Virus record (IMG/VR): IMGVR_UViG_3300034092_002703
Span: 1 to 23,866 of that record
Source of the DNA: a virus
Direction: 5' to 3' (one strand)
DNA length: 23,866 nt
Below, in pieces: positions 4,681-23,275 of the stretch. Positions within the stretch are counted from its first letter, which is position 1. Each line of letters opens with the position of its first letter. The notes below the pieces were generated by a model. The model was given only the letters and a program-made list of their open reading frames with translations. It made no database searches and was not told where the DNA came from. The position numbers were made by a program, and so were the translations under genes.

Positions 4681-6119
4681 CCTACAGAAAGGTAAACGAA
4701 GTCAGTAAATGGGGTTTCCGAAAATCCACAGATAGCCTTCACCCTAACATATCCCAGCATACCAAATGTGGTGAACGTGTGTGTAGGACTGGAGGTATAG
4801 ATCACTTCCTGGACAGTAGTCTGAAGCAGATCCCAGCGCTCCAAAACGTACTGCACGTGGCCCGGGCTTCCTGTCCAGGTAACAACGCCTGCCGTATTGA
4901 TAAGCCCGGTCACCAGTGGGCATGATGGAAGTTCTCCAAAGTATATATCTGGCGAGTAAGACTCATTGACATATCCTGGCGTGAAGTCCACCGGAAAATC
5001 TTTAACCGGATCACCCTCGTTTCCGAGATCCACATTTGAGTTGGTGATCAGTACCGGTCTCCATCTTTTGAACTTCAATTGATATACCCGGGTGCTTACC
5101 ATCAGATCCCGCAGGCGATCGTAGGCATCAGGATCATCCATCAGTCCAACGGAGCCGGAGTAGGTTTCCTGTTCCTGGGTTTTTAGGTTTTCCTGCATGG
5201 TGGCCAGCTCAGTGGTCGAGTAGTAATCAGCGCCAATCATTTTCTCGGCAAACTGGCGCTCGTAGACGGTTTTTTTGTTCAGCTCGCCACGTAAGCGAAG
5301 GCTATCAAACCCGCCCAGTGAGTTAAACCAATGCAGCGTAGTGACGCTATACGTGTTGCGATAATCCACCACGTACTTGAACTCAGTGGTTACGTTCACC
5401 GTGTTAGCCACTACCCTCACGGTGTAGTAATGGACCACCTTGGTATCATCAAAATCTTTCAGCCCCAGCTGAGCACCGGTGGGTATATGGTAAATGCCGT
5501 ACTTAGGCACCGATCCAGCAAAGGGCATGGTAACAGCGTTGATGCTCGAGGTACCATCGGTGTAGTAAATGTTCACCTTGGCAGACATATTGGTCTGGTT
5601 GTTCAAACCCAAATGCAGATAGGTGAGCCAGGATTGCTCACGTGGTGCGATCAGTCTGCCAGTCTTCTGCCAGGTGAGGATCCCCGGAAAGTTCAAAAAG
5701 TATTTAGGGCCCTGCCAATGTTGGTAGGGGATACCTCCTTTTACACAGATGATAGATTCACTGAGGTCTGATGTCCATGCCGGGCTTGGCGCGGCTGTGG
5801 TGACCTCACGAAAATCAATATACAGCTGCCCAGCGTGCTCAAAGGCGGGTTCAATCACCGATGTGTTGATGGCTGGTAATTTGTAATCAATCAGCGAATC
5901 TAGTATCTTTTTGAGATCGATAGATGCCCGGCCAGCACTATCGGGGACCAGTGAAGTCTGGAAGATCTGCACAAAGCCAAACGTGCCAAACTTCCGGTGG
6001 AACATCCGCACGTCAATCCTTAGGCCCGGCGTTGTCAGGGCCGCATCTGTCTGGAACCGGTACACTACCGGGTTTCTGGAAAAGCACACCTCATAGGGCC
6101 GCTCTGTCATTTGCACCAT
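4677..6119 (-). CDS. Putative tail/baseplate protein with C-terminal beta-sandwich-like region
   Basis: A 480-residue protein that begins MVQMTERPYEVCFSRNPVVY, a style seen in phage tail-tip or fibre-associated proteins that start with a beta-domain. The last about 90 residues (from roughly GELPSCPLVTGLINTAG) read like a fibronectin type III-like sandwich, with alternating hydrophobic strands and the pattern VTWTGSPGHVQYVLERWD. The gene overlaps the next one by ATGA, which implies coupled translation and paired structural roles. No enzyme motif is visible. Function is inferred from position between the portal block and the putative hub. Confidence 0.7.
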   Translation of the reverse strand: MVQMTERPYEVCFSRNPVVYRFQTDAALTTPGLRIDVRMFHRKFGTFGFVQIFQTSLVPDSAGRASIDLKKILDSLIDYKLPAINTSVIEPAFEHAGQLYIDFREVTTAAPSPAWTSDLSESIICVKGGIPYQHWQGPKYFLNFPGILTWQKTGRLIAPREQSWLTYLHLGLNNQTNMSAKVNIYYTDGTSSINAVTMPFAGSVPKYGIYHIPTGAQLGLKDFDDTKVVHYYTVRVVANTVNVTTEFKYVVDYRNTYSVTTLHWFNSLGGFDSLRLRGELNKKTVYERQFAEKMIGADYYSTTELATMQENLKTQEQETYSGSVGLMDDPDAYDRLRDLMVSTRVYQLKFKRWRPVLITNSNVDLGNEGDPVKDFPVDFTPGYVNESYSPDIYFGELPSCPLVTGLINTAGVVTWTGSPGHVQYVLERWDLLQTTVQEVIYTSSPTHTFTTFGMLGYVRVKAICGFSETPFTDFVYLSVG

Positions 6120-13155: not shown

Positions 13156-13173
13156 TGAAAAACCCTCCGAAGA
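13156..13173 (+). repeat. Direct repeat copy A (left border of cargo operon)
   Basis: The 18-mer TGAAAAACCCTCCGAAGA on the plus strand is identical to bases 17082-17099. It covers most of the terminator hairpin at this end of the cargo operon. The two copies are 3,926 bp apart. Confidence 0.85.
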
Positions 13174-13178
13174 GGGTT
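13158..13178 (-). terminator. Intrinsic terminator of the cargo operon (UUCG hairpin)
   Basis: The minus strand reads AACCCTC-TTCG-GAGGGTT followed by TTT: a perfect 7-bp stem closed by the very stable c(UUCG)g tetraloop and continuing into a five-T run (13162-13158). The stop codon of the last cargo gene lies in the stem. It separates the cargo operon from the tail genes that follow. Confidence 0.85.
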
Positions 13179-13353
13179 AGTTAGAATCGTTTTTTTGCCG
13201 AAGTAAAAATTCCTTGACCAGATGCTTTATGTCAGGTGCCAGATAGATAGGCACCCTAAATGATATTGTTGTGGTTGGAGTTGCCCACTCGGCTGGCCTG
13301 CCAGCACCTTCCCTGACTCCACCTCTGCCGTCTTTTTTTCTTTTCTTTTTCAT
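13177..13353 (-). CDS. Small DNA-binding-like protein, possible ribbon-helix-helix
   Basis: A 58-residue, very basic protein. It opens with KKKRKKDGRGGVREGAGRP, the GGxREGAGRP signature found at the N-terminus of many short phage and plasmid proteins. Then TTTISFRVP could be the beta-strand and YLAPDIKHLVKEFLLRQ the first helix of a ribbon-helix-helix fold; a second helix is missing or very short. The start at 13353 is chosen because it makes an ATGA overlap with the stop of the PP-loop gene; an ATG 15 nt upstream is possible. It is the last gene of the cargo operon. It could act as an autoregulator or DNA-targeting partner, but that is inference. Confidence 0.75.
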   Translation of the reverse strand: MKKKRKKDGRGGVREGAGRPAEWATPTTTISFRVPIYLAPDIKHLVKEFLLRQKNDSN

Positions 13354-14480
13354 AAGCTTTCCATCCATTTTTTAATGATCTGATCCTCTCTTTTCAACAC
13401 ATTCTTTTGCAAAATCTGATCCTTTGAGTAATTGAACTCATAGTCCCGCGCCCAAGTGATACTGCCCTCCCAATCACAGAGTAGAATACGCTTCACCATG
13501 TACTTGCAAGCCCCCACATCATCTGTGTCTCCGAAACGGCTCCATTGATAGGCAAATAATTTAGCTAAGTCTGGGTGGATGCTTTGCAGTAAAAAGTCTT
13601 TATACTCCTTCCAGCTATTGAACCGATCCGGTAAGCTTTTGATTGAGTACATCAGGTTTTCCTTAGCGTAAATTGCTGCCGTATGAACGCCCTGCAACCT
13701 CTCCTCCAGCTTATCGTAAGTATCTGGCTCTAATTCTTGCAAATCTGCCAGACATCGAAAAGCCTTTTCATGAACTAAGTTTGACACCCTCATTGTTCGA
13801 ATGTCGTGCCCAAGCATGTACATTTTGTCGTAGATTTTGTTATAGAGAAAACCGCCTTCAATCAAGTATTTCCATACATCCCGGTAAAGCCAGTCAATGA
13901 TTGGATAAGCCCTGTGAGGCTCGTTTTTTTTGCGAATCCAGAACATCTCACTATCCTCACCAAACATCACAAATCTCCGGTCAGGGCTTTCCTCAGCCCG
14001 TAAACCAATCACTGATATACTTTTCCCTTCTCGCCTTCTCAACTGCTGGCCAACCCATAAGTTAAACTTATGGAACCGCCGTGGGTACTTCACATCAATC
14101 GAGTGAATAGCCAATGGATGCTTTTCTCTTACCCACTTTTCTTCTGTACCCCAAGCCCAAAGGAAAAGCTGCTGCTGGCTGGCCGCATTGGTCATGAAGA
14201 TCGGGACCTGGTACCACAAAGGGATCACATTGGGCTGGCTCATTGCCCATTCTACAAGATCTATGGTAGCCTGGTATTCGGCTTCTTGGTCCTGAAAGTA
14301 GAGGATGAATTTCCGATCTCTTTTTTTTGCCTCTTCGTTCAATAAATGGAAAAGCACGGTGCTATCCTTACCAGCCGAAAACGATAGCTGGATGTTGTCG
14401 TAGTTATCGAACAACCACGCCACCCGCTTCTCCGCTGCTTCCAGCACATTTTCCACACCCCTTACCGCTGTTCTTCCCAT
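13350..14480 (-). CDS. IbrA-like PAPS-reductase-family PP-loop protein
   Basis: A 376-residue member of the adenine-nucleotide alpha-hydrolase (PP-loop) superfamily, PAPS reductase branch, closest in layout to IbrA-type (DUF3440) proteins. The PP-loop SFSAGKDS is at residues 33-40. The conserved GLRAEESPDR is at 159-168 and PIIDWLYRDVWKYL at 193-206, both characteristic of this family. Such enzymes adenylate or bind ATP-derived substrates, but the IbrA substrate is unknown. Only three cysteines are present (243, 325, 335), so the four-cysteine iron-sulfur site of DndC-type enzymes is not evident. It overlaps the ParB-like gene by 19 nt, as ibrA and ibrB are paired in E. coli, where they activate prophage eib genes. 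Confidence 0.88.
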   Translation of the reverse strand: MGRTAVRGVENVLEAAEKRVAWLFDNYDNIQLSFSAGKDSTVLFHLLNEEAKKRDRKFILYFQDQEAEYQATIDLVEWAMSQPNVIPLWYQVPIFMTNAASQQQLFLWAWGTEEKWVREKHPLAIHSIDVKYPRRFHKFNLWVGQQLRRREGKSISVIGLRAEESPDRRFVMFGEDSEMFWIRKKNEPHRAYPIIDWLYRDVWKYLIEGGFLYNKIYDKMYMLGHDIRTMRVSNLVHEKAFRCLADLQELEPDTYDKLEERLQGVHTAAIYAKENLMYSIKSLPDRFNSWKEYKDFLLQSIHPDLAKLFAYQWSRFGDTDDVGACKYMVKRILLCDWEGSITWARDYEFNYSKDQILQKNVLKREDQIIKKWMESL

Positions 14481-15022
14481 GCGTCCGGTTTTATGTCTTC
14501 CCCTGCCTCAACGATCTGCCGTTCAATAGAATATGGCACTCCCTTAATTTCTGAGGCGATCCCCTTCAAGCCTATAAGTCTCTGCACCTCTTCCAGCGTC
14601 ATTCCAAGCTCTTTCATGATCTTCAATTCATCCCACCCGGCTTTCAGCATGCCCACCAATGAAGCCTGTAATTCTACATCATGCTTACCCCTGGCTCTGT
14701 TGTGTCTGACAGTGGAAGCCATTCGGTCATTGATATCCTTCTGAATGACTGACACCGGCAACATACCTTTTTCGCGCTCGAAAATGTCCTTGTACCTCAT
14801 GATCACGGTATAGCGGTGAAAACCATCAACGATCACGTATTTGTCGCGGACATCGTCATAATAGCAGACAATGGGCATTGTATAGCCGTCGCACTTGATC
14901 GACTGGTACAGCAGATCCATTTCCCTTTTGGCAACATGGTTAGGGTTGTAATCATTGGCCTCGATTTTGTCCAGCGGAACTGCGATCACACTGTACACCG
15001 GACTTCTGAATTCTTTATTCAT
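14462..15022 (-). CDS. IbrB-like ParB/sulfiredoxin-fold protein
   Basis: A 186-residue protein with the N-terminal ParB/Srx fold. It carries PLDKIEANDYNPN (residues 16-28), the nucleotide-binding-type VDGFHRY (65-71) and RHNRARGKH (106-114), followed by a helical segment (about 130-155, MTLEEVQRLIGLKG) that could form a helix-turn-helix. The combination VDGFHR plus RHNRARGKH is typical of IbrB-like proteins that accompany PAPS-reductase-like partners in prophages and mobile elements. True chromosome-partitioning ParB features (long DNA-binding and dimerisation domains) are missing. It starts with an ATGA overlap with the helicase gene. Likely role: DNA-binding or nucleotide-dependent partner of the PP-loop protein. 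Confidence 0.85.
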   Translation of the reverse strand: MNKEFRSPVYSVIAVPLDKIEANDYNPNHVAKREMDLLYQSIKCDGYTMPIVCYYDDVRDKYVIVDGFHRYTVIMRYKDIFEREKGMLPVSVIQKDINDRMASTVRHNRARGKHDVELQASLVGMLKAGWDELKIMKELGMTLEEVQRLIGLKGIASEIKGVPYSIERQIVEAGEDIKPDAWEEQR

Positions 15023-16227
15023 ATTTCTTCTTTGATTTGTGCCCCTGTTTTCCCTTTCAGATATTGGAGCATTGATTGTTTTTTCTCATTGTTTTTGGCC
15101 ATCAGCAAGTCCAATTTCGGGCCGTTCAATCGGTAGAATTTCAGCGGTTGATCCTGCCCCGTTCGCTTTGTCCTATGCCTGCTCTGATCAACTACTGCCC
15201 AATCCCAGGTGTGATCCCAGTAAATGGTGTTGTGGTAGTGCTGCAAGTTCAAGCTATAAGAATTGGCCTGTAAACTCAATATCTGGCACTTTGGGAAAGC
15301 CTTTCGACACTCTTCTTGGCTGCTGATAAATTTGCAAAAAATAATCGTTCGCTCTGGATCTATCGTTGTCAGTAGTTTTTTGACAATAGTGAACTTATCT
15401 TCTGCACAACAGTAGATGTGCTGCATTTTCTGCGTCATCTCTAAAAAGATATTATTGTTCATCCGCATCAGCACCTCATTATCAAGATATAGTTCCTTCA
15501 ATCGGTTGTATTCTGCCTGCAAATCGTCATCCAGCTTATATTCCAGATCAATGTCCTGCTCCCCAACATCCAAATGCAGATCAGCTTCGTAAATATAAGG
15601 GCTGATGATGCTGTACAGGTAGTCGATATTGTGGTATCCAGCGATAAACTCCCGCTGATTAACGATCCTGTTGCCCTTGTACTTGGTTATCTTGACCGTC
15701 TCACAGAATGTGCGTTTGTATTCCGCCTGCTGCATCCGCAGGATAAGCGGAGATAAGAACTCCAGTTGTGCCCACAAATCCAGCAAATTGCGGCTGATCG
15801 GCGTGCCATTCAGGATCAGCTTGTATTCGCACTCTCTCGATAGTTCGATGATTCTCTTGGTTCTGATGGCATCCCAATTCTTGATTTTCAGCGATTCGTC
15901 GCAAACCAGAAATACCCGTTCCCGCTTGACCATCTCCAACAATCTTAAATACTCCCTATCGCTGCTACTCAGCGTCTCTATACCCACAAATTCTACCGGG
16001 CAATTCATCCCCCACCTATCCACCTCGTCCGCTATCCCTGATCCTTCAATTGGAGGATTAACTGATTGAAATGGAGCCAGCCAAATACAACGATCCACAT
16101 AAACGCTATTCACAAGCTCCACGGCGGGCCTTGTCTTGCCCGTTCCCGGCCTCATGAATAGTGCGCCTACCTTTAGTGACTGAAGGCGGCTAATGGCCTC
16201 AGATTGGATTTTTAACGAGGGAATCAT
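15019..16227 (-). CDS. Compact SNF2-family DNA translocase/helicase
   Basis: A 402-residue superfamily 2 ATPase. Visible motifs in order: motif I RPGTGKT (26-32); motif II DESLKIKN (110-117), matching the SNF2 DExxxxKN form; motif III with LNGTPISRNLLDLWAQLEF (139-157), the classic SNF2 LTGTP..N...ELW pattern; motif VI QSRHRTKRTGQ (348-358), matching QxxxRxxRxGQ. It is short for the family: only the two RecA lobes are present, with no accessory DNA-recognition or nuclease domain. Specificity may come from the neighbouring proteins. It overlaps the upstream gene by 29 nt and the ParB-like gene by ATGA. Expected activity is ATP-driven movement on double-stranded DNA. Confidence 0.92.
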   Translation of the reverse strand: MIPSLKIQSEAISRLQSLKVGALFMRPGTGKTRPAVELVNSVYVDRCIWLAPFQSVNPPIEGSGIADEVDRWGMNCPVEFVGIETLSSSDREYLRLLEMVKRERVFLVCDESLKIKNWDAIRTKRIIELSRECEYKLILNGTPISRNLLDLWAQLEFLSPLILRMQQAEYKRTFCETVKITKYKGNRIVNQREFIAGYHNIDYLYSIISPYIYEADLHLDVGEQDIDLEYKLDDDLQAEYNRLKELYLDNEVLMRMNNNIFLEMTQKMQHIYCCAEDKFTIVKKLLTTIDPERTIIFCKFISSQEECRKAFPKCQILSLQANSYSLNLQHYHNTIYWDHTWDWAVVDQSRHRTKRTGQDQPLKFYRLNGPKLDLLMAKNNEKKQSMLQYLKGKTGAQIKEEI

Positions 16228-16543
16228 CTGGTAAAATGTTTTTGGGCTCTATTTTTGTCGGTATATGACGCTCAACCACCGTGGTGATCACTGGCTCTAT
16301 TCGGTAGGTAGATGGATTGAACCAGCCTTCTTTTTTCGTGCTATATTGAAGCTCTTTTTTTTCGAGTATCCACGCTGAGATCCAATATGCCTCACTTTTC
16401 TGCACGTCATCATCTGGACATAGTACCTGGCTTTTAGGTATGATGGCTTCAGATCCATCGAAACCTTTGGCTAAAAAAGCCTTATCGGATATGCTCCGGA
16501 GGCTTTGAAGCCTCACGGAGTAACAGCGGATTTTCCCTACCAT
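16199..16543 (-). CDS. Hypothetical protein with IPKSQ motif, helicase-associated
   Basis: A 114-residue basic protein. It contains KAFLAKGFDGSEAIIPKSQV (about residues 22-41), a pattern I associate with small phage and plasmid proteins where a short beta-hairpin ends in (W/I)(I/L)PKSQ, usually near recombination or helicase genes. The C-terminus is charged and Pro-rich. The ATG at 16543 overlaps the upstream stop by 7 nt; a TTG at 16549 is less likely. Coupled translation with the helicase suggests a partner or nucleic-acid-binding role. Not a recognised named family. Confidence 0.7.
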   Translation of the reverse strand: MVGKIRCYSVRLQSLRSISDKAFLAKGFDGSEAIIPKSQVLCPDDDVQKSEAYWISAWILEKKELQYSTKKEGWFNPSTYRIEPVITTVVERHIPTKIEPKNILPDDSLVKNPI

Positions 16544-16995
16544 ACCCAAATGAAACTTGCATTCACACTCTCAAACTGAGATACAAAGGTTGCCAGTTTA
16601 CCTTTAGTTTCGGACTCATTGCGAAAATTTATAGGATCGCAAATCTCTTGAAGCTTTTGAACATAAGCATCAGCGGCTGCGTTTAACTCCTTCACTTGAT
16701 TGTCTGTCAGCAGATTGGAAAATACATGGTACCTACCGTGGTTCCAGTCTATTTTTTTATGGCTATCTGATATCTCTTTTAGCTCTGCAAATTTATCCTG
16801 TGAAAGATCTACAATTTTATGATAGGTTCTACTTCTACCTTCATCAGCTGGCTTGTTGACAAACCCTTTCAAGAAAATATTCTTAATTTCTCCATCTACC
16901 ATTACCACATATTGCTTTTGCTGGGATTCGCCGTAGTTTGCGTTCATGTGATAGCAATCTGTAAGTGTGTACCCGAGTTCGATTTGATTAGCCAT
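16537..16995 (-). CDS. Hypothetical first protein of the cargo operon
   Basis: A 152-residue soluble protein with a beta-rich N-terminal half (LGYTLTDCYHMNANYG, QQKQYVVMVDGEIKNIFLKG) and a helical C-terminal half (LTDNQVKELNAAADAYVQKL). I do not recognise it. It is visibly more AT-rich than the structural genes. Its ATG lies about 28 nt after the -7 box of a good host-type promoter, so it heads the cargo operon and is likely its most strongly translated product. Confidence 0.75.
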   Translation of the reverse strand: MANQIELGYTLTDCYHMNANYGESQQKQYVVMVDGEIKNIFLKGFVNKPADEGRSRTYHKIVDLSQDKFAELKEISDSHKKIDWNHGRYHVFSNLLTDNQVKELNAAADAYVQKLQEICDPINFRNESETKGKLATFVSQFESVNASFIWVW

Positions 16996-17023
16996 AAAAG
17001 ATGTTTTTGTTTTTTTGATAGAT

Positions 17024-17054
17024 CAAAGATAAACATACTTTTTGATTTTGCAAA
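17024..17054 (-). promoter_or_regulatory. Host-type (Bacteroidota) promoter of the cargo operon
   Basis: On the minus strand TTTG (17054-17051), exactly 19 nt, then TATCTTTG (17031-17024). This fits the Bacteroidota primary-sigma consensus TTTG / TAnnTTTG in both boxes and in spacing. The predicted start is near 17018-17020, giving a leader of about 25 nt before the ATG at 16995. It lies between the terminator at 17084-17107 and the first cargo gene, as expected for an independently expressed cassette. Confidence 0.8.
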
Positions 17055-17081
17055 CTTTTTCTAATTTATTTTTTCACCCAC

Positions 17082-17099
17082 TGAAAAACCCTCCGAAGA
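17082..17099 (+). repeat. Direct repeat copy B (right border of cargo operon)
   Basis: The plus-strand 18-mer is identical to bases 13156-13173. It forms most of the terminator that ends the 50-residue gene just upstream of the cargo promoter. Confidence 0.85.
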
Positions 17100-17107
17100 A
17101 GGGCTAA
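17084..17107 (-). terminator. Intrinsic terminator before the cargo operon
   Basis: The minus strand reads AGCCCT-TCTTCGG-AGGGTTTTT. The stem is six pairs including one G-T, or can be drawn with the UUCG loop and an internal wobble; a five-T run follows (17088-17084). The stop codon of the 50-residue gene lies in the 5' arm. It is nearly identical to the terminator at 13158-13178. Confidence 0.75.
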
Positions 17108-17307: not shown

Positions 17308-17383
17308 CTACCACAGCCCATCAGGGAATACCTACTTCCACGCCGTAGCGTGTCACTGCTTCCCTGATTTCTGATTGTGGTAG
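17308..17383 (-). ncRNA. Unassigned structured RNA, three stacked helices with UACG loop
   Basis: On the minus strand three helices nest exactly. Outer helix: 8 bp, CTACCACA (17383-17376) with TGTGGTAG (17315-17308). Middle helix: 9 bp, ATCAGGGAA (17368-17360) with TTCCCTGAT (17328-17320). Inner helix: 5 bp, CACGC with GCGTG, capped by c(UACG)g, a UNCG-class tetraloop (17352-17339). The internal loop below the inner helix has GA on both sides, fit for tandem sheared G-A pairs. It matches no riboswitch or self-cleaving ribozyme core I know. It could be a leader regulating the 50-residue gene, a stand-alone small RNA, or a DNA-level palindrome. Confidence 0.65.
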
Positions 17384-17417
17384 TTTGGAAATGAAAGCTC
17401 GCGAATAATTTATAAGG

Positions 17418-20898: not shown

Positions 20899-20934
20899 CA
20901 AAATTGTAGATATCTTAAAAATGATGAAAGGACA
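20899..20934 (-). promoter_or_regulatory. Phage-type promoter copy 4 (upstream of protease/capsid unit)
   Basis: TGTCCTTTC (20934-20926 on the minus strand), 19 nt, then CAATTTTG (20906-20899), and the ATG of the protease gene 5 nt later at 20893. Preceded by AAAACC, as in copy 2. Confidence 0.6.
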
Positions 20935-21821: not shown

Positions 21822-22270
21822 AACCATTTGAACATTTTTGCAACCCGAAAAGCAAGTGCGGCAACGAACAAACCAACTATCCCCAGAAGAAAATACAGCC
21901 TTGTACGGGCTTCTTTGCGCCAGTAGTCGCGCTCTGTTGTCATTTGAACGAGTAGGTTCTCTACCACGGTCAGCCGCTTATTCAAGGCATCCAGCAGCTC
22001 CCTATCCTTGATCTTTGAGGTGTCCACCCTGGTCACCTCTTTGTAGTGCCTTTCGACATACCTTTCTTTGACCGGATAGGGCAAGGGGATAGTGTCCAAT
22101 TCCACCCGCTCAATAACTGAATCTTTACCACGAATAAATGTGGTGTCATTCTTTGGCGGGTTTGCTTTCACATACTCCCGTACCACCTCCTCGGTGGCTT
22201 CCTGTGATTTCAAGACCTTCTTAACCGGGTTGCAAGAAGCAAAAAGTAATATGATAATTAGTAATCTCAT
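21818..22270 (-). CDS. Unimolecular spanin (u-spanin)-like lipoprotein
   Basis: A 150-residue protein with both ends membrane-bound. The N-terminus MRLLIIILLFASCNPVKK is a very short lipoprotein signal with lipobox LFASC (Cys13 lipidated after cleavage). The C-terminus has a transmembrane helix (LYFLLGIVGLFVAALAF, about 125-141) and a short basic cytoplasmic end. The periplasmic middle contains charged helices (ERHYKEVTRVDTSKIKDREL, then NKRLTVVENLLVQMTTERDY). This is the topology of T1 gp11-type u-spanins, which bridge and fuse inner and outer membranes in the last step of lysis. ATGA overlaps link it to the holin-like gene and the micropeptide. Confidence 0.75.
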   Translation of the reverse strand: MRLLIIILLFASCNPVKKVLKSQEATEEVVREYVKANPPKNDTTFIRGKDSVIERVELDTIPLPYPVKERYVERHYKEVTRVDTSKIKDRELLDALNKRLTVVENLLVQMTTERDYWRKEARTRLYFLLGIVGLFVAALAFRVAKMFKWL

Positions 22271-22437
22271 TTTTTCTCATCTCCTGCAACCCTGCCAAGT
22301 ACTGCGATAGCAACCGCAATGGCAATTGTCCACCGTGAGGTAACGCCCTTGTCAATCAAATCTTGAGCGACCAAAAGCCCTGCGAGAAGTAAACCCGCTA
22401 ATGTCGTGTGCCAACTGTCTCCAAAAATCTTTTTCAT
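22267..22437 (-). CDS. Small holin-like two-helix membrane protein
   Basis: A 56-residue protein, MKKIFGDSWHTTLAGLLLAG..., with two hydrophobic helices (about 12-28 and 37-50) joined by a short charged turn (DLIDKGVTSR) and ending GDEKK. Size, two-helix form and charged tail fit class II holins, which perforate the inner membrane to let the endolysin out. I chose the ATG at 22437, which lies 4 nt after the stop of the upstream gene; an ATG 30 nt upstream would add a polar segment and overlap it by 26 nt. Family not proven by motif. Confidence 0.7.
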   Translation of the reverse strand: MKKIFGDSWHTTLAGLLLAGLLVAQDLIDKGVTSRWTIAIAVAIAVLGRVAGDEKK

Positions 22438-22780: not shown

Positions 22781-23275
22781 TCAACCTTTGCTTTTTATGA
22801 TGATCATATCATGGGTTGCAGGCGAATTACCGCCAAAGTATGCGCCAAGCTTGTACCCCACCATAATCATATGTTTTTGAACTGTTACGCTTTTACTGCA
22901 TCGAAACCCCTTGTTATCTGTCACCACGAAAACATACAACCCTTTTTCAACGTATATGCGATAGTTATAAAAGGCACCCATCTTTACCTGGCAAACAAAT
23001 TGAGACATCCTTTCACCACGGCTGTAGACATATGCCCATATCTCCATTGCTTCCGTATCAGTATTCCATCTCCAACAAAACCTGGCAGACTCCTTGTGAT
23101 GGTGCGGCCAGTAGCCGACCCCAAACAGCTTGTTTAAATCCATCTGATCACTGGTCTTCAAATCGTACTTACACGAATAGTCAAAGCATATCTGCTTACT
23201 GACAGATTTTGAAAACACCAGCCCCAAGCTGCGTGGCTTGAAGCGGTGTTCAGATGCTTTGACTTTGTAGTTCAA
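22781..23275 (-). CDS. Hypothetical beta-rich protein, TTG start
   Basis: A 164-residue protein rich in aromatic residues and beta-strand patterns, with an unusual cluster GYWPHHHKESARFCWRW near residues 54-70, suggesting a metal- or ligand-binding loop or a carbohydrate-binding-type sandwich. The only sensible start is TTG at 23275, whose TTGA overlaps the stop of the upstream gene; the next ATG is far inside. No signal peptide. Unknown family. It lies between a putative tail gene and the lysis cassette, so either a virion-surface or a lysis-accessory role is possible. Confidence 0.65.
   Translation of the reverse strand: MNYKVKASEHRFKPRSLGLVFSKSVSKQICFDYSCKYDLKTSDQMDLNKLFGVGYWPHHHKESARFCWRWNTDTEAMEIWAYVYSRGERMSQFVCQVKMGAFYNYRIYVEKGLYVFVVTDNKGFRCSKSVTVQKHMIMVGYKLGAYFGGNSPATHDMIIIKSKG

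Follow-up and report, generated by a model that had tools for sequence, protein, structure and literature searches.

Does a 76-nt imperfect palindrome lying between two small late genes in an uncultured phage represent an RNA of a new class? The question was raised by an earlier note on positions 17308–17383 of a virus fragment of 23 866 bases (the whole fragment is called the window below). The hairpin described there was confirmed. Its reading as an unknown RNA class was not supported, and it looks like an ordinary stem-loop, either cis-acting or neutral, rather than a new kind of RNA. Taken alone it matters little, as a lineage-specific intergenic stem-loop of a kind common in phage mRNAs; the result is a useful negative for the 'orphan RNA class' reading.

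Fold and strand preference of the hairpin

The core hairpin lies on the minus (coding) strand and reads, from 17383 to 17308, CTACCACA, ATCAGAA, ATCAGGGAA, GCAGTGA, CACGC and TACG, followed by GCGTG, GAAGTAGGTA, TTCCCTGAT, GGGC and TGTGGTAG. The three mismatch-free helices that had been claimed were recovered exactly, with Watson–Crick pairs only: 8 bp (CTACCACA/TGTGGTAG), 9 bp (ATCAGGGAA/TTCCCTGAT) and 5 bp (CACGC/GCGTG, capped by the cUACGg loop). The internal loops also have the sizes given for them, 7/4 (ATCAGAA/GGGC) and 7/10 (GCAGTGA/GAAGTAGGTA). Only the minus strand gives a UNCG reading of the tetraloop (UACG vs CGUA), as had been noted, but the closing C-G pair, which had likewise been assigned to the minus strand alone, is present on both strands. 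Folding of the minus strand gave an MFE of −33.6 kcal/mol (z −5.46; none of 200 dinucleotide shuffles was equally good) vs −28.2 kcal/mol (z −4.58) for the plus strand, in agreement with the coding-strand preference proposed earlier.

Pairing runs beyond the core through TTTCCA/TGGAAA and further, forming an outer helix (CATTTCCA/TGGAAAGAGATG), with about 35–40 predicted pairs in four stacked helices. The extent of 76 nt is exact for the core, but the stem reaches further outward and, on the predicted fold, the natural unit is the extended hairpin of about 113 nt (17404–17292, minus strand). A nested 8 + 7-bp palindrome of this kind was found once in the window vs once in 20 shuffled windows. 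After GC correction, the hairpin ranked sixth in the window when 80-nt segments were compared and third with 110-nt segments. Two other stretches of the minus strand, 23156–23265 and 22211–22320, fold at least as strongly; one of them is within a predicted frame and the other over a gene start. The hairpin was not reported as an intrinsic terminator (a G+C-rich stem directly followed by a T run) on either strand, and no terminator directly follows it. A 72-aa frame over the hairpin was considered as a coding explanation and excluded by a 1-nt deletion in the sibling phage L014; since this deletion shifts any frame, the hairpin is, judged by sequence, noncoding.

Gene context and distribution

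The coding-strand order is protease (20893–19577), capsid-like protein (19544–18660), an 82-aa protein, tail-tube-like protein (18341–17796) and p68 (68 aa; 17748–17542, minus strand). These are followed by an intrinsic terminator (17514–17489, minus strand, conserved in L013 and L014), the hairpin, p50 (50 aa; 17256–17104, minus strand), a second terminator (17102–17089, minus strand), a cargo, a 126-aa gene and an 889-aa gene. The setting had thus been described correctly, between a terminator and a 50-residue gene and outside the cargo border. Protein roles were assigned by gene order and protein size; the capsid-like protein, in addition, weakly matches the major capsid protein of a Microcystis phage. 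The capsid-like, tail-tube-like, p68, p50 and 126-aa proteins had no match in Pfam or PHROGs. Homologues of p68 (66–70% identity) and of p50 (40–44%) were found in the sister phages L010, L015 and L016, and on these comparisons p50 is a real gene family.

Rfam 15 gave no covariance-model match at 17308–17383, even at E up to 5. No match was obtained by blastn of the hairpin against phage and plasmid records, and a structure-aware pattern applied to 84 980 prokaryote genomes returned a single Lachnospiraceae hairpin, which was taken as chance. When a covariance model was used on 15 related or comparison phage records, the element was detected in two and in none of the other 13. The carriers are three near-identical phages: the window, L003/L009/L013 and L007/L008/L014. 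The record holds one copy, and no dispersed copies were found in related records outside the siblings, nor among the prokaryote genomes apart from the chance match. The hairpin shares with REP/BIME and MITE palindromes its nature of intergenic imperfect palindrome, but differs from them in being single copy, with none dispersed in the genomes searched. In viral contigs, core and structure patterns recovered only the siblings and unrelated hairpins (L004, L002, L005 and L006). In the unrelated phage L004, a capsid-like gene is immediately preceded by a long, stable hairpin (5226–5326) whose tip reads CACGC-NNNN-GCGTG. This hairpin was rejected as a relative and regarded as coincidental: the shared features were imposed by the pattern, for which a rough chance estimate is several matches.

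Over the 76 nt, L003/L009/L013 shows no change. L007/L008/L014 shows one deletion and two substitutions (17372, 17353 and 17332), each within an internal loop; the three differences of L014 are at unpaired columns and none is at the 70 paired columns. The chance of all three falling in loops is about 6% by our own arithmetic. None of the 35 pairs varies among the three near-identical siblings, the only copies, which gives no covariation evidence either way. The earlier note had also pointed to GA on both strands under the inner helix, as possible sheared pairs. Both are present in the window, but in L007/L014 one partner is U: the change at 17353 (A to U, coding strand) removes one of the two G.A oppositions, and sheared tandem G.A pairs are therefore not a conserved feature.

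In L010, L015 and L016, whose tail-tube protein is 78–79% identical, p68 and p50 are kept and the hairpin is absent. Their p68–p50 spacers (about 155 and 105 nt) are not significantly structured compared with shuffles (z −1.5 to −0.3). A position-conserved structure before p50 was considered in these sisters and discarded, as only weak hairpins occur there and the spacers are not clearly stabler than shuffles. A functional RNA with a class of its own is unsupported by an element restricted to three near-identical phages and absent from sisters with the same flanking genes. The compact fold and the UNCG loop on the coding strand would suit a free-standing small RNA or ribozyme, but Rfam offers no match at gathering or relaxed thresholds (the hairpin is, as had been stated, of no known class), no terminator comes after the hairpin, L014 lacks the tandem G.A pairs and homologues are confined to siblings; such an RNA is very unlikely.

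Relative to L015/L016 the spacer is longer by roughly 180 bases, which include the hairpin, and the hairpin may well be a lineage-specific palindrome without selected function. Its absence from every sister that shares the flanking genes and the lack of relatives in the genomes, plasmids and phages searched point in this direction, as does the rate of change, which at three changes per 76 nt in one sibling is no slower than in the surrounding spacer. Against a functionless palindrome, all three changes are in loops and none in helices, and mismatch-free nested core helices would hardly be expected to withstand drift over long periods.

The adjacent cargo

A 4-kb cargo (13156–17102) is inserted in the tail operon and bounded by a duplicated terminator. 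It contains PAPS reductase/IbrA-like, ParB-like/IbrB-like and SNF2-type helicase genes and small genes, and most of its nearest named relatives are in Flavobacterium phages. A perfect Bacteroidota promoter, TTTG-N19-TATCTTTG (17054–17024, minus strand), is located just ahead of its first gene, and the cargo is therefore probably equipped with a promoter of its own. Because of this promoter type and of the cargo's relatives, the phage host is probably a member of the Bacteroidota.

The cargo is bounded by a 21-nt repeat, TGAAAAACCCTCCGAAGA(A/G)GG, with one copy per border in the window (13156–13176 and 17082–17102); the terminator after p50 is also part of one copy. The sibling L003 represents the empty site: the 4-kb cargo is missing, and only one copy of TGAAAAACCCTCCGAAG is present, through which the sequence continues without a break. 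Since the hairpin does not differ between the phage with the cargo (window) and the one without it (L003/L013), it is not a cargo end; the earlier proviso, that only a DNA palindrome at mobile-element ends might be conserved, does not apply. A palindrome of a mobile element or a recombination site at the cargo end would agree with the distance of about 0.2 kb to the cargo border and with the plus strand folding almost as well, but besides the identity in the cargo-free sibling, the bounding repeat is a different sequence, the hairpin is single copy in the record and no copies occur among the prokaryote genomes searched. This origin is extremely improbable.

Putative late promoters and the p50 message

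A late-promoter-like motif, TGTCCTTTC...CAATTTTG (20934–20894, minus strand), is located upstream of the protease-MCP-MTP-p68 operon that holds the hairpin. The window contains five copies of TGTCCTTTC (21096, 20934, 13155, 10059 and 2859) where 0.06 would be expected; all five are at operon junctions and on the coding strand. In the form TGTCCTTTC-N19-nAnnTT(T), it recurs in most related phages on the coding strand only, and the reversed pattern was not found; the motif is also present in L010, L014, L015, L016, L019, L020, L031, L033, L034 and L035. Twenty-five copies were compared, mostly distinct, with a few from near-identical siblings. An A is found at position 29 after the box start in 92% of them and TT at positions 32–33 in 96%, and these positions superimpose at N19 spacing on the −7 element of the host, nAnnTTTG. 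In most of the 25 copies the next long reading frame begins at +40 or +41, which is the predicted transcription start; in the window, a start was found at +39 to +41 for 20934, 13155 and 2859, and not for 21096 and 10059. The motif is likely the late promoter of the clade, whose messages would then be largely leaderless. The Flavobacterium phages FCL-2 and 2A (of the latter, 43 kb of 46.6 kb were read) lack it, and searches for papers on this motif or on late promoters of Flavobacterium phages brought up nothing relevant. With its predicted start often on the start codon, it offers a stronger lead than the hairpin, and one directly open to testing, on how late genes are controlled in Bacteroidota phages, and deserves a separate follow-up.

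No clade late promoter is present between p68 and p50, so that the hairpin and p50 most likely form the 3′-terminal part of the transcript from the capsid operon. Our preferred explanation, held tentatively and at less than even confidence, is a lineage-specific untranslated p68–p50 stem-loop acting in cis on the processing or stability of the p50 message. The capsid/tail-tube late transcript would probably start at the motif at 20934, and read-through of the p68 terminator would yield transcripts that contain the imperfect stem of roughly 110 nt, followed by p50. The long duplex might be cut by host RNase III or obstruct exonucleases, and in this way the stem could protect the short p50 message and separate it from the abundant capsid message. 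The stem with its coding-strand preference, its position among p68, the p68 terminator and p50, the unpaired location of all L014 differences and the lack of a late promoter in the interval argue for this account. Against it, the only copies are three near-identical ones, too few to demonstrate selection on the stem, the p68–p50 pair is also found in L010, L015 and L016 without significant spacer structure, and equally strong folds exist elsewhere in the record. A neutral stem-loop is almost as probable.

Alternatively, the hairpin could be the 5′-leader stem-loop of a separate p50 transcript, with an RNA start near 17413 and a role in mRNA protection or translation tuning. Bacteroidota promoters have the consensus TTTG/TAnnTTTG, with nearly invariant positions in the −7 element (PMC6847099). 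A weak promoter-like site, TTTT-N19-TACTATTG (17448–17418, minus strand), has the Bacteroidota spacing and is kept in all three siblings (L013 and L014 retain it), and terminators flank p50 on both sides. The site is one of about a dozen of its kind on the same strand of the window. It has two mismatches to the consensus, one of them at a nearly invariant −7 position (PMC6847099), and is absent in L010, L015 and L016, which makes a separate leader unlikely.

The cis-acting stem-loop favoured here was compared with known phage RNAs. T7-like RNase III signals resemble it by shape only, as an interrupted long stem in phage mRNA; in R1.1, cleavage of such a stem matures and protects the mRNA (PMC8708148). 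The present hairpin differs in that an intrinsic terminator precedes it and the host phylum is probably different. A stem of about 12 bp with a tetraloop is reported to be sufficient for E. coli RNase III (PMC8708148), and the predicted fold, with about 35–40 pairs, exceeds this length (at least about 12 bp) when the interrupted helices are counted together, which speaks for the cis-acting account. It is highly improbable that the hairpin is a phage-encoded cis-acting RNA that arose de novo in a single lineage of Bacteroidota phages, a put-like antiterminator or processing signal allowing late transcription through the p50 terminator or otherwise determining how p50 is expressed. Like the hairpin, the HK022 put RNA comes from a phage, is about 70 nt long and has interrupted stems (PMC9378689); put consists of two stem-loops binding RNA polymerase, whereas the hairpin studied here is one long predicted stem.
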